Origin: a virus
Direction: 5' to 3' (one strand)
Virus record (IMG/VR): IMGVR_UViG_3300023284_000562
Span: 1-35,906 of that record
DNA length: 35,906 bases
Part shown: in pieces, positions 10,656 to 34,832 of the stretch
How the letters are laid out: each line of letters begins with the position of its first letter
Position numbering within the stretch: the first letter of the stretch is position 1
Position numbers and translations under genes: made by a program
The notes under the pieces: model-generated
The model's database searches: none
What the model was told of the DNA's origin: nothing
Seen by the model: the letters and a program-made list of their open reading frames with translations, nothing else

Positions 10656-10891
10656 GTAGTTATGTAGAATTTTTTAGTTTCAATACAGCCTGGTCGCGAG
10701 AATATATAATTTGGACGTTGCCGTATAGCTCAGGTAACAAGTATTTAAACAGTCATATAGAACGGGTTAACCCAGATGCCCCTGACAGTGACGCACCTAA
10801 TACAACGAGTATAGCACAAAAGATAGAAAATTTATTAAACGATTCAGGATTTAACGAGAGTAAAAAACAATGGCTAGCAAAGCAGAATTAA
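10116..10891 (+). CDS. Tail assembly chaperone GT-like, made by -1 frameshift
   Basis: A slip at A-AAA-AAA (10637-10643) moves ribosomes one base back, so the product is join(10116..10643,10643..10891), about 258 residues. The added 82 codons read NDWLSSYVEFFSFNTAWSRE and continue to a TAA at 10889-10891. They include YIIWTLPYSSG, like the aromatic 'YSREFILWELPY' type pattern of T domains in lambda-like chaperones. The extension fills the 214-base gap between G and the tape measure ATG at 10870 and overlaps that gene by 22 bases. The frame is plainly open and protein-like; slippage itself is inferred. Confidence 0.75.
10637..10643 (+). promoter_or_regulatory. Programmed -1 ribosomal frameshift site
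   Basis: The heptamer A AAA AAA lies in frame at codons 174-176 of the G-like gene, inside a run of nine A. The zero frame stops 9 bases after the A run, while the -1 frame stays open for 82 codons. Confidence 0.72.
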
Positions 10892-29158: not shown

Positions 29159-31186
29159 TTAATTACCTCCTAATTTATGTTTTCTTATTTGTTGTTCTTC
29201 AAAACTTTCACCACGTACAGCTAATTCTTCATTTTCTTCACGTATATCATTTTCTGAATATTCAGCTGGTCTGGTCCACATTCCTTTTGTTCTGTAATCC
29301 TTTGCCATATCATGTAAAGACTTTATATCTGTAATTTCTCGTACAATACCCAACTTAGGGTCCCATTCGCAATAAATACGGTGTTGACTACCTTCATCAC
29401 GACTTTTTTCATTATTGATTATTGCAGAAACACGATCTAATTCATCACCTAGAATAGTTTGAGTATGTTTTTCTAATGATTTAACCTTTTTTATTCTCTG
29501 ATAGCGAAGTATTGAATCAGCCATGTTTTCAATCTCAGAAGCACCGGAAATTACTACATCGCCTTTTTTAGGGTGAGCAATCAATATTATATGAACAGGA
29601 TAGTCTTGTTTAAATTTGGTTAATTCTTTCATGATACGCGATTGTTGCATATTAACCTGACTTTTAGAATCTACTATTGACATGAGCGAATCGATAACAA
29701 ATAGAAATGTGCCTTGTTTTGCTGCAATAATCATATTAGCCAGAATATCATCAAAGTTAAAATCTAAGTCCTCTTTATGATAAAACTGTATATAGCTACC
29801 ATATTCTCTATCAAAGCGCTGTACGGCTTCTTCAGTCGGTGTAAAGATCTCTTTGTTATAAATGTTAATATGTGAATTAATTCTTTTAGGATAGATCATT
29901 CTAGCAAATCGACTCTTTTCAACACCTATACTAGATTCTGAGAATAACGACCATGATTTTTTGCTTTGTTTAGCAGCTGCTACAATCATTTGCCGGGCGA
30001 CAGTTGTTTTACCTTCACCACGTTTACCTGTCATAACAGTAATTTTATGCTTTTTTAATCCAGCATCATTATAATCATGTGTTAAAAAGCCAGAACTAAT
30101 ACCATCTTCAAGGAATTCTATTTTAACAGATTGGGCCGTAATACAATTTTCAATAGGAATCGATTTAACCTTTTTAATGATCTCATAGGCATCAATACCA
30201 CTATCCAGGACATCAGATATATCAAAGCCTTTAGTTTTCTGATATGCAAAGTCAGGATAAGATTGAGCAATATCTAAATATGATGTTTTAGCAGGGTCAA
30301 ATACTTTAGTAGCTTCTTCAATCATATAATTACCTGCTTCATCAGCATCAGGAAAAATAATCAAACTTTGACAATGATTTTTATACCATTTTCTAAAAGT
30401 AGGTGAATGTTCAATTGCTATCTTAAGACTCTTAGAGCCGTTAGGAACTGATATAACACCAAGTACATCAAAGGTATTTTTATAAGCAGTAGCAACCCTT
30501 AAACAATCCGTATGACCTTCACATAATATTACAGTAGGCTTTGGATTACCTGATTTATCAAATAATGTATTTAGGCCGTAAAAACTAGGCCAACCATCAG
30601 CAACGCTAATTTCTTTACCTGCTGCACCATCAAATACATATTCCTTACCTGAGAGCAAACGACGTTTAGAGAATACATTTTCCCATTTGTTTTTGATTTT
30701 CTCACTATGCCTAAAGAATATCTCAGTATCACTAAATTTAGTGCCGTAGTGTTTTGCAACATCCATATCAATATTTTTACCTGCAAGATATTGTGACGGG
30801 CTATCATAACTAAGCTTAAATGAATTAGTTTTTGCAATAAATGTATCTTTTGGCCTAACAGTTAATTTATTCTGTAAGTAAGATGATGGTAATTTATAAT
30901 GCGAATGAGGGATGTTATGCATTTTACACAAAGCTTCAATTGCTTCTGGGAAGCTCATGGCGTGAAATTCTTGATAATGGGTAAGAATATCATAACTATT
31001 TGCATGATCGCCTGAATAGCAGCTAAAATGATCACCACGCCATTCAGCAGAAGGTACTGAATCTTTATGCGAGTGATAAGGGCAATTATATAGATTACCT
31101 TTTTGCAATAAGTTTAAATCACTGGTTATTATATCTCTTGCAGTATCACCCAGACGGGCTTTAATTTGATTTGTTAGTTCTTGCAT
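29159..31186 (-). CDS. Primase-helicase (DnaG-type zinc and Toprim domains plus RecA-like helicase)
   Basis: This 675-residue protein should synthesise primers and unwind DNA at the fork. The zinc domain has C35, H38 and C56, with the fourth position a glycine (G59) followed by D60/H61, so the usual CHC2 set is altered. Toprim motifs are ILCEGHTD (E223) and FPDADEAG (D280, D282). The helicase half has Walker A GKRGEGKT at 387-394, Walker B FLFVIDS at 494-500 and motif ILIAHPKKG. The layout is like T7 gp4 and P4/P22-type fused replication proteins. No phage DNA polymerase is present. It overlaps the upstream YopX gene by 13 bases. Confidence 0.9.
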   Translation of the reverse strand: MQELTNQIKARLGDTARDIITSDLNLLQKGNLYNCPYHSHKDSVPSAEWRGDHFSCYSGDHANSYDILTHYQEFHAMSFPEAIEALCKMHNIPHSHYKLPSSYLQNKLTVRPKDTFIAKTNSFKLSYDSPSQYLAGKNIDMDVAKHYGTKFSDTEIFFRHSEKIKNKWENVFSKRRLLSGKEYVFDGAAGKEISVADGWPSFYGLNTLFDKSGNPKPTVILCEGHTDCLRVATAYKNTFDVLGVISVPNGSKSLKIAIEHSPTFRKWYKNHCQSLIIFPDADEAGNYMIEEATKVFDPAKTSYLDIAQSYPDFAYQKTKGFDISDVLDSGIDAYEIIKKVKSIPIENCITAQSVKIEFLEDGISSGFLTHDYNDAGLKKHKITVMTGKRGEGKTTVARQMIVAAAKQSKKSWSLFSESSIGVEKSRFARMIYPKRINSHINIYNKEIFTPTEEAVQRFDREYGSYIQFYHKEDLDFNFDDILANMIIAAKQGTFLFVIDSLMSIVDSKSQVNMQQSRIMKELTKFKQDYPVHIILIAHPKKGDVVISGASEIENMADSILRYQRIKKVKSLEKHTQTILGDELDRVSAIINNEKSRDEGSQHRIYCEWDPKLGIVREITDIKSLHDMAKDYRTKGMWTRPAEYSENDIREENEELAVRGESFEEQQIRKHKLGGN

Positions 31187-31566
31187 GAGTTCTCCAATAA
31201 TTCTGGGTTTTCGTGAATGTTGCCGATAACTTCATAATCCTCACAAGCATATGCCTCCAATGGATCATTTGAATAATCTGTATAAAATCCGCAATTAAAG
31301 TTATTCCAAACAACCACAGTCAAAACAATATCATCTTCGCTGTGATCTTTTAAGATATCACCCTCATAGATTTCAACGCCGTTTTTATCCTTCAGGCCGG
31401 TGTATTGCATAAGAATTGAATCTGTCGGTTGACTGTACTCTTGCCCATATGGTCCACAACTTCGACAAAATTGACCATTCTCAATGCAATAATTGCTCCA
31501 TATACCAAACGGGCTTAACTCCATAAAACCACCATCCCACGCTCTAAATTTAATTTCTCTACTCAT
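31174..31566 (-). CDS. YopX family protein, first copy
   Basis: A 130-residue YopX protein: MSREIKFRAWDGGFMEL at the start, LMQYTGLKDKNGVEIYEGDI in the middle, and EVIGNIHENPELL at the end. These are typical of the family, whose function is unknown. The middle and end motifs are nearly identical in a second copy at 34482-34832. The 3' ends of the two copies share at least 27 identical bases. It overlaps both neighbours, the downstream primase-helicase by 13 bases and the upstream gene by 4. Confidence 0.88.
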   Translation of the reverse strand: MSREIKFRAWDGGFMELSPFGIWSNYCIENGQFCRSCGPYGQEYSQPTDSILMQYTGLKDKNGVEIYEGDILKDHSEDDIVLTVVVWNNFNCGFYTDYSNDPLEAYACEDYEVIGNIHENPELLENSCKN

Positions 31567-32043: not shown

Positions 32044-32407
32044 TTGGTTTATTCTCCCTTTCCTGTGTCATTTTCCATTTCTCACAGATTTTTACCTGTT
32101 TAAAACCTGTTAATAAGTCTTTTTTTACTTCTAAATATGCTGATAGTTTGAATGGTGCTGGTAATGTTCTTTGTGCGTAATAAGTATCCTCATCGTATTC
32201 TAAAGAGTATAATTCAAGGCTGTAAGATTCCTTAGAATTAAACATCTGATGATATACTGATAAAGAAAATTTAGATGGGTCATAAATCTTTACTAAGGTA
32301 TGAATAAGGTCATATTGTATAAATTGTTGATATTCTTTTGCCCCTTGTAGCCGTTCAAGACAGTAATTATGCCTAGCCTGTTTATATTCAATTTCTGATA
32401 AAACCAT
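32036..32407 (-). CDS. Hypothetical protein coupled to the initiator gene
   Basis: A 123-residue protein, basic and Tyr-rich (IEYKQARHNYCLERLQGAKE, YSLELYSLEYDEDTYYAQRT). No family is recognised and there are no membrane spans. It starts in the stop codon of the initiator gene (TAATG), so it should be co-translated with it; a helper role in replication is possible. Confidence 0.5.
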   Translation of the reverse strand: MVLSEIEYKQARHNYCLERLQGAKEYQQFIQYDLIHTLVKIYDPSKFSLSVYHQMFNSKESYSLELYSLEYDEDTYYAQRTLPAPFKLSAYLEVKKDLLTGFKQVKICEKWKMTQERENKPNA

Positions 32408-33582
32408 TATTCAACCCCTGGATGATCATCAGATAATTCAAAGAACTCACTATCTTTCATACCAACCGGCTGTATGGCGTAATATTCAGCATCTAAAGGT
32501 AAATATTTACCTGTATTGACCTGTTCACCTGTTTTTGGCTCTAATTCCCAACCACGGGCCGTAACCCAGTTTTTAAAAGTCTTCCATTCTGGTATAAAGT
32601 TAAGTTTTGAATCCTTACAGGCTGAATTCATTAGTTTACAGGTCTTTTCCCATGCTAAGAGTGCTGAGATGGAATTAACAGCTTTAGTGATTATGTCAGG
32701 GTAGAATATTTCATCACACAAACATGAGTTAACAAAGAATTGCTTATCAGTCTCTAAAGTCTCTTTTCTGCCAGGCTTATAAGAATTGTGTAATAAATGA
32801 AACTTTTCATCAAATTCTTCAATTACAGTTTTAAGCGTACTGTAATCAATACCACGTTCCTGTGCCAACCAATCTATATCTTTATCGCTCTTTTTGCCTT
32901 CAGGTGCCGTTTCTGTTAAAGCTATGGCATGTATATCGGTGTATTCGCGGTCCATTGCTGTATTCACCATCATTTCTCTATTTTCCATCGATTCCAGTTT
33001 TTTAAGAAATGCTTTTAAGCCTCTAATGGTTTTATAAGGCCTTTTAATTGACCACCTGTAATTGATCCAATCTAAAAATAGCTGTAATGGAATTAAATCT
33101 TGTTGATAGTCTAAACAAAACTGTTTATTAAACTTTTCATTACTCACAGGAAAAAGAGCATTATCTGAATTATTTTTAGATGTATCTTTAGATATATCTT
33201 TATTGTGTTTATTAATGTGTTTACTATCTGGTATTGGTTGGACGATTCCGTCCGTTGCATTGGACGATTCCGTACTATGCATTTGACAGTTTTGACAAAC
33301 CGAATACCATTTGGTACGATCAAAGCCTAATTTATTGAAATTACTTGATATAATAAGCTCTTTATCTTCAAGCCTTTTTAGAATTCTTTTAATCTGGCTT
33401 TCGCTCCAATATTCGAATATCCCTGTAAATGCTTTTGTGGTATTGTAAGTCCAGTATTTACCATTGAAGAAATTCTTGTTATTAAGTCGGTTTCGGCTTT
33501 GCCAGTAGCTTAGGTTATGCAGCAGTATAGCCTCATTCACCCCATGCTCTTTAGCTATCGCAGTATCGAAAATATGTATCAT
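32407..33582 (-). CDS. Replication initiator protein (winged-helix, phage O-like)
   Basis: A 391-residue replication protein. The N-terminal 100 residues (VNEAILLHNLSYWQSRN..., SESQIKRILKRLEDKELIIS) form a winged helix like those of phage and plasmid initiators. Residues about 95-150 are a low-complexity linker (NKHNKDISKDTSKNNSDN). The C-terminal half, with FIPEWKTFKNWVTARGWE, resembles the replication-protein end that contacts the helicase. The gene holds two 22-base-spaced DNA repeats next to an AT-rich stretch in exactly the linker region, like the origin in lambda gene O. It lies upstream of the primase-helicase in the same operon. Confidence 0.7.
   Translation of the reverse strand: MIHIFDTAIAKEHGVNEAILLHNLSYWQSRNRLNNKNFFNGKYWTYNTTKAFTGIFEYWSESQIKRILKRLEDKELIISSNFNKLGFDRTKWYSVCQNCQMHSTESSNATDGIVQPIPDSKHINKHNKDISKDTSKNNSDNALFPVSNEKFNKQFCLDYQQDLIPLQLFLDWINYRWSIKRPYKTIRGLKAFLKKLESMENREMMVNTAMDREYTDIHAIALTETAPEGKKSDKDIDWLAQERGIDYSTLKTVIEEFDEKFHLLHNSYKPGRKETLETDKQFFVNSCLCDEIFYPDIITKAVNSISALLAWEKTCKLMNSACKDSKLNFIPEWKTFKNWVTARGWELEPKTGEQVNTGKYLPLDAEYYAIQPVGMKDSEFFELSDDHPGVE
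33238..33295. other. Candidate replication origin: 22-bp iterons plus AT-rich stretch
   Basis: TTGGACGATTCCGT occurs at 33238-33251 and 33260-33273, with ATGCA or TTGCA just before the following unit; a degenerate third copy (TTTGACAGTTTTGA, 8 of 14) begins at 33282. The period is exactly 22, which is not a multiple of 3, so protein repetition does not explain it. The first copy is also a perfect hairpin GGACG-ATTC-CGTCC. The neighbouring bases 33130-33237 are AT-rich and could unwind. Confidence 0.6.
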
Positions 33583-33668: not shown

Positions 33669-33700
33669 AGGCCTCGATTCACCGGGGCCTTCTTCTTTTC
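33669..33700 (+). terminator. Plus-strand terminator-like hairpin
   Basis: AGGCCTCG (33669-33676) pairs with CGGGGCCT (33683-33690), one wobble pair, loop ATTCAC, followed by TCTTCTTTTC on the plus strand. Genes on both sides run on the minus strand, so it would stop antisense or plus-strand RNA. Confidence 0.5.
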
Positions 33701-34481: not shown

Positions 34482-34832
34482 TTATTTATCCTTTAATAGT
34501 TCTGGGTTTTCGTGAATGTTGCCGATGATTTCTATGTGGAAATGACAGCCAACTACATGGTTAATATCGGAGTTTGTGAATAAGCTCATTCTATGATATG
34601 CTGCCTCTATAGATTGAACCTTCCATCCACCATAATGATGAATAATTTGCTTATATTCTCCCCATGTACTCATAAATTTATCACTAGGATCTTTAATGAT
34701 ATCCCCTTCATAGATCTCAACGCCGTTTTTATCCTTGAGGCCCGTGTATTGCATAAGGTACATATTGCCACCAGTTAAAGCATAATCCAACATCATTAAA
34801 TTATCCCTCATGTCATCGCCCCAGGTGATCAT
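34482..34832 (-). CDS. YopX family protein, second copy (altered start)
   Basis: A 116-residue YopX-like protein that lacks the usual REIKFRAWD N-terminus and instead begins MITWGDDMRDN. From LMQYTGLKDKNGVEIYEGDI onward it follows the copy at 31174 closely, with a different middle and an identical end (IIGNIHENPELL). Its 5' end (34716-34832) lies in the 145-bp inverted repeat shared with 35762-35906. It is the first sizeable gene of the early operon. An AAGG site lies 5 bases before its ATG, within a small upstream frame. Confidence 0.78.
   Translation of the reverse strand: MITWGDDMRDNLMMLDYALTGGNMYLMQYTGLKDKNGVEIYEGDIIKDPSDKFMSTWGEYKQIIHHYGGWKVQSIEAAYHRMSLFTNSDINHVVGCHFHIEIIGNIHENPELLKDK

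Follow-up and report, generated by a model that had tools for sequence, protein, structure and literature searches.

Embedding of a replication origin in the gene for its own initiator is known in general kind from lambda O, TP901-1 Rep and the RepA_N initiator of pSK41. The origin of lambdoid phages has been defined experimentally inside the initiator gene; the iterons of lambda O lie in the mid-gene linker, each of them a dyad with an A-rich core, and an AT-rich tract follows on the gene-downstream side (PMC7466680). The replisome organizers of the lactococcal P335 phages TP901-1 and Tuc2009 bind repeats in their own genes that serve as ori (PMC8965321). The pSK41 Rep protein binds four Rep boxes located centrally in its own gene, with an A+T-rich core, and the peptide that the boxes encode is merely a linker (PMC5703833). 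In RepA_N/PLE RepA systems, semi-palindromic iterons converge on a poly-A tract (PMC7145576), while SPP1, by published description, carries direct repeats and an AT-rich DUE within the initiator gene (gp38/oriL; PMC6316719).

The window analysed here is a virus record of 35.9 kb (35,906 nucleotides, IMGVR_UViG_3300023284_000562) without terminal repeats. Its minus strand carries an initiator gene with three iterons and an adjacent AT-rich tract, and we consider it highly probable, from sequence comparisons, that this is a theta-type phage replication origin embedded in its own initiator gene. A sequence-only reading of the locus had likened it to lambda, and the annotated iterons of gene O do lie mid-gene. 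Lambda differs in having four iterons whose starts are 20, 24 and 23 bp apart, as opposed to the constant 22 bp here, and in the absence of the CCWATACC element from the region; a profile of the family N-domain did not report lambda O at maximum sensitivity with E values up to 100. The linker repeat of TP901-1 rep is unlike ours in measuring 14 nt at a 15-bp spacing, and the best domain match of the profile to TP901-1 Rep (0.6 bits, in another part of the protein) is not convincing. RepA_N initiators (pSK41, pTZ2162) and PLE RepA provide the nearest solved folds for the N-domain. The family here differs from them in being phage-encoded, sometimes near a primase-helicase, and in its 22-bp array and frozen element, and Pfam RepA_N (PF06970) matched 0 of 43 members at E 0.01. 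SPP1, again by published description, differs in possessing a second origin and a separate loader, gp39. By these profile comparisons the family belongs in sequence to none of the lambda O, TP901-1 Rep or pSK41 RepA_N groups. A literature search found the general layout and did not find the 22-bp family, the element or the covariation described below; Weigel and Seitz (2006) lay outside its scope, and no priority is claimed.

The replication region and its iterons

Packaging, head and tail genes occupy the plus strand of the window, and early genes come next on the minus strand. The initiator matches phrog_11233 'replication initiation protein' (E 5e-32) and phrog_6493 (E 8.5e-20), and all 43 aligned relatives match both families. 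A few genes downstream lies a primase-helicase gene, the product of which is likely to be recruited after origin opening. Two YopX-domain proteins are encoded on either side of the replication region (31174-31566 and 34482-34832), a terminator-like stem with a T-rich tail is found upstream of the initiator gene on the plus strand (33669-33690), and a tRNA search returned none. GC skew, which the sequence-only reading had proposed as a check, rises across the plus-strand genes and falls across the minus-strand genes; since it tracks gene orientation, it is unable to place the origin. The features of the region are as follows.

29159-31186, minus strand: phage primase-helicase with zinc ribbon and RecA-like helicase (Pfam Zn_ribbon_DnaG and DnaB_C; phrog_239 DNA primase/helicase)
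32407-33582, minus strand: phage replication initiator gene, 391 aa (phrog_11233 and phrog_6493 matches)
33168-33227, minus strand: AT-rich tract, candidate DNA unwinding element (least stable 60-mer of the gene)
33225-33237, minus strand: frozen element CCAATACCAGATA, abutting iteron 3 (conserved motif in linkers; invariant codons)
33238-33255, minus strand: iteron 3, centre 33246.5, including ACGGAATCGTCCAA and the perfect dyad GGACG-GAAT-CGTCC
33256-33261 and again 33278-33283, minus strand: spacer AATGCA (position frequencies; family consensus AATGGA/AATCCA at -24 to -19)
33260-33277, minus strand: iteron 2, centre 33268.5, including ACGGAATCGTCCAA (exact repeat; family alignment)
33282-33299, minus strand: iteron 1, degenerate, dyad TTTGTC-AAAACT-GTCAAA, centre 33290.5 (8 of 14 in phase; family dyad register -53.5)
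33289-33582, minus strand: N-terminal winged-helix domain, residues 1-98 (AlphaFold2 pLDDT; fold matches)
33364-33402, minus strand: predicted recognition helix, residues 61-73 (AlphaFold2 model; residues 62 and 65 covary with iteron bases)

The two 14-base repeats noticed by the sequence-only reading are indeed exact copies of ACGGAATCGTCCAA (33238-33251 and 33260-33273), 22 bp apart start to start, and they are read in different frames (ACG GAA TCG... versus AC GGA ATC...). The degenerate third repeat it had proposed is also borne out: the copy at 33282-33295 matches at 8 of 14 positions exactly in phase, as good a match is found at only 0.85% of window positions, and its inclusion extends the array to about 33299. 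Among 20,000 codon shuffles of the window linker, a repeat of at least 14 nt at any spacing from 13 to 89 arose in 3, and matches to GGACGNNNNCGTCC with at most one mismatch are confined, within the window, to the two repeats (0.06 expected). The array is encoded just past the winged-helix domain, where pLDDT drops, in the linker-coding part, as had been claimed. An iteron copy with two mismatches at 10711-10724, in the gap between two plus-strand genes, is probably due to chance, though SPP1 has a second origin.

The AT-rich stretch previously noted beside the repeats corresponds to the 60-bp stretch of lowest duplex stability in the gene, at about the 0.05th percentile of stability for the whole window, and lies on the gene-downstream (lower-coordinate) side of the array. 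The least stable 40-mer is found just past the element in only 27 of 57 relatives.

A layout shared by diverged initiators

Homologues were drawn from phage records, viral contigs and genomes and yielded 87 non-redundant proteins, with hosts that include Bacteroides, Flavobacterium, Vibrio, Pseudoalteromonas, Lactobacillus, Staphylococcus, Clostridia and Alphaproteobacteria. Linkers were compared with N-domain, C-domain and upstream regions of equal length and with codon-shuffled linkers. Exact repeats of at least 10 nt at a spacing of 22 are present in 39 of the 87 linkers, against 0/87 N-domains, 1/85 C-domains and 0/86 upstream regions, while shuffled linkers gave a mean of 0.02 and a maximum of 1. 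Other spacings of linker repeats of this length are 44 (17), 24 (10), 45 (9) and 66 (8). Between phages the repeat sequence varies and the spacing is constant: initiators that have diverged and whose iterons are unrelated in sequence share a linker with three 22-bp iterons followed by an AT-rich element, and they come from phages or prophages of Bacteroidota, Firmicutes and Proteobacteria. This recurrence backs the earlier proposal of an iteron array inside the initiator gene.

That proposal had also turned on the repeats persisting in close relatives that keep the gene. Checked up to about 55-60% identity, this holds for the family overall, although exact matching reveals no repeats in about one third of its members (in 30 of 87, none of 9 nt or longer at multiples of about 22). 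No relatives closer than about 55-60% identity were found, nor did single-protein, terminase or primase searches of viral_contigs and genome_contigs return a close relative; an eight-sequence alignment was too diverged to serve as a search query. Members without exact 22-bp repeats possibly have degenerate or relocated origins. L034, L026, L117 and similar sequences have no exact 22-bp repeats of at least 9 nt, and some of them still have the element. A Staphylococcus/Lactobacillus group (L055-L059, L009) has a spacing of 22 plus 23 bp (45), with the element shifted by one reading frame.

When 57 relatives are aligned on the downstream motif, the three iterons end at this motif with dyad centres at -53.5, -31.5 and -9.5, and autocorrelation peaks at 22 and 44. 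Further dyads are located within the spacers at -20.5 and -42.5, so that half-sites alternate at 11 bp. Within a phage the two arms are complementary at 0.60 of pairs, and exchanging right arms between phages lowers this to 0.38 (sd 0.02). The register of the window is identical to that of the alignment: its three 22-bp dyads are in phase and run up to the element, and the degenerate copy (TTTGTC-AAAACT-GTCAAA) corresponds to the first iteron of the family. The sequence-only reading had seen a hairpin in the first repeat; the inverted repeat, GGACG-ATTC-CGTCC at 33240-33253, is indeed perfect, and, because the window fits the family register exactly, it is best read as one putative dimer binding site.

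Immediately 3' of the last iteron the family carries CCWATACCAGATA. The pattern CC[AT][AT]TACCA (CCWWTACCA) is found in 57 of 87 linkers, in two reading frames, and in 1 of 87 in each control region; the window has the element as well. It encodes Pro-Ile-Pro-Asp with fixed codons: Ile is ATA in 45 of 45 cases (36% in the rest of the genes), CCA encodes the second Pro in 44 of 45 (44% elsewhere), and Asp within and after the motif is GAT in 62 of 62 (65% elsewhere). GC-rich phages show the same bias (ATA in 19 of 23 within the motif versus 55 of 201 elsewhere), and Leu in place of Ile is always TTA (7/7). Seven relatives, of which six belong to the Staphylococcus/Lactobacillus group, translate this DNA in a frame shifted by one, giving Thr-Asn-Thr-Arg and variants of it. 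Selection on the protein is unable to account for this conservation. Repeats that fall in different frames, synonymous codons that do not vary and an element translated in two frames together show selection on DNA rather than on protein, as the sequence-only reading had argued from the period of the repeats.

A DNA-pattern scan for the element returned 80 loci, roughly 50 of them initiators; initiators that the motif filter had called 'other', such as L160, L169, L189, L193, L200 and L209, were reclassified by eye. Matches outside initiators carry no 22-bp repeats of at least 9 nt and look like chance, and the scan of these 80 loci found no case of the element in service outside initiator genes. 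A resemblance to a DnaA box was set aside, with two mismatches by eye and the site lost in other members.

The N-terminal domain and the iteron bases

AlphaFold2 models the N-terminal domain with mean pLDDT of 94-98 at residues 1-80 and values below 50 from about residue 100, the disordered linker. The nearest solved folds are the RepA_N initiators 4pql, 4pt7, 4pta and 5kbj (Z 9.4-10.5, rmsd 2.8-4.2 over 92-100 residues), which include a Rep-DNA complex. General winged-helix proteins come next at Z up to 9.2, so the likeness to RepA_N is one of fold only. Searching the solved structures with a sequence profile gave no hits.

Covariation between protein and iteron was assessed in 85 phages. Base 2 of the half-site covaries with residue 62 (z 14.9), Lys going with G in 22 of 25 cases and Asp with C in 9 of 10. 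Bases 3 and 4 covary with residue 65 (z 12.3 and 10.9): Arg65 accompanies C-A in 32 and 33 of 35, respectively, and Asp or Glu at this position mostly G at base 3. The two residues lie three apart on the predicted recognition helix. In pairs of proteins less than 40% identical, the base is shared in 67% with the same residue 62 and in 19% with a different one. Residues 62 and 65 still rank at the top (z 4-6) among 44 sequences capped at 60% identity, and with 15 sequences below 50% identity covariation falls to noise for some positions. Leave-out tests showed a clear gain for residue 65 at position 4 (46 vs 36 of 58 for the commonest base), a slight one for residue 62 at position 2 (37 vs 32 of 62) and none for residue 65 at position 3 (49 vs 49 of 58). 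The Lys65 of the window is consistent with its CC, and the window half-site CGTCCAA also occurs in L171 (R62, K65) and L072. Residues 62 and 65 are thus probably the two amino acids that read the iteron DNA.

Competing explanations and a proposed mechanism

The iterons could instead be an operator through which the initiator regulates transcription of its own gene, with the true origin elsewhere. Bound initiator could block its own operon, and the opposite strand has two TTGACA hexamers within or next to iteron 1; promoter-like sites are, however, no commoner than in shuffles, the sites lie mid-gene and abut a conserved tract of low stability, and all experimentally studied cases found with the same layout are origins. 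We therefore regard this explanation as unlikely, though operator and origin roles could coexist. Alternatively, the repeats might be a recent and functionless 22-bp tandem duplication that arose by chance in a freely varying linker. Such an event would yield two identical copies, and the linker is disordered, but relatives throughout the family have the same spacing in repeats of unrelated sequence, the third copy and the register match that family, and the arms covary with the protein, which makes a duplication of this kind very improbable.

Selection on a repetitive linker peptide draws on the recurrence of linker words (NG....PIPD.NTD) in many relatives. It is hard to square with a period of 22, which is not a multiple of three, with frozen synonymous positions and an element in two reading frames, and with the substitution of Leu for Ile solely via TTA; its probability appears close to nil. 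We give as little credence to the notion that the inverted repeat functions by folding into a hairpin, in DNA or in RNA, whether as primer site, terminator or cruciform: GGACG-ATTC-CGTCC is able to fold, but only one of the three window iterons is a perfect dyad, family dyads are imperfect and combine conserved 22-bp phasing with covariation with a protein helix, and Rfam gave no match.

For an origin within the initiator gene, then, the following sequence of events is proposed. We strongly infer that the initiator binds the iterons; its winged-helix domain would do so as dimers, on three dyads spaced exactly 22 bp, that is two helical turns, which would turn all three to the same side of the double helix. 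The variable half-site bases would be read by residues 62 and 65 in the recognition helix. By analogy with the systems described above, the assembled complex would open the adjacent AT-rich tract, which starts with the conserved CCWATACCAGATA, and the C-terminal part of the initiator would bring in the phage's own primase-helicase, so that melting and helicase loading would lead to origin firing.

Because the layout is fixed, with three 22-bp dyads and a frozen element of 11-13 bp after them, and lies inside a recognisable gene, it allows the origins of uncultured phages to be located from sequence alone. As two helix residues covary with half-site bases, the specificity of initiator for origin is directly testable with natural homologues, and this extends to compatibility between co-infecting phages or satellites. 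The conservation of the element in two reading frames also raises the question of which factor reads it. A tentative answer, which we hold with somewhat less than even confidence, is that the 11-13 bp CCWWTACCAGATA may be a near-universal cis signal with an invariant reader, and the iterons private 'passwords' partly readable from two initiator residues; if true, both origins and initiator specificity would be predictable for many uncultured phages. The element may serve, for example, as a strand-opening or helicase-loading site, and the 12-bp A-rich repeats perhaps match a helicase footprint. These repeats (..CAGATATAAACA..) follow the iterons at 33189-33237 and in relatives, with an A at almost every second base family-wide, and 12 nt would fit the footprint of a hexameric helicase at 2 nt per subunit.
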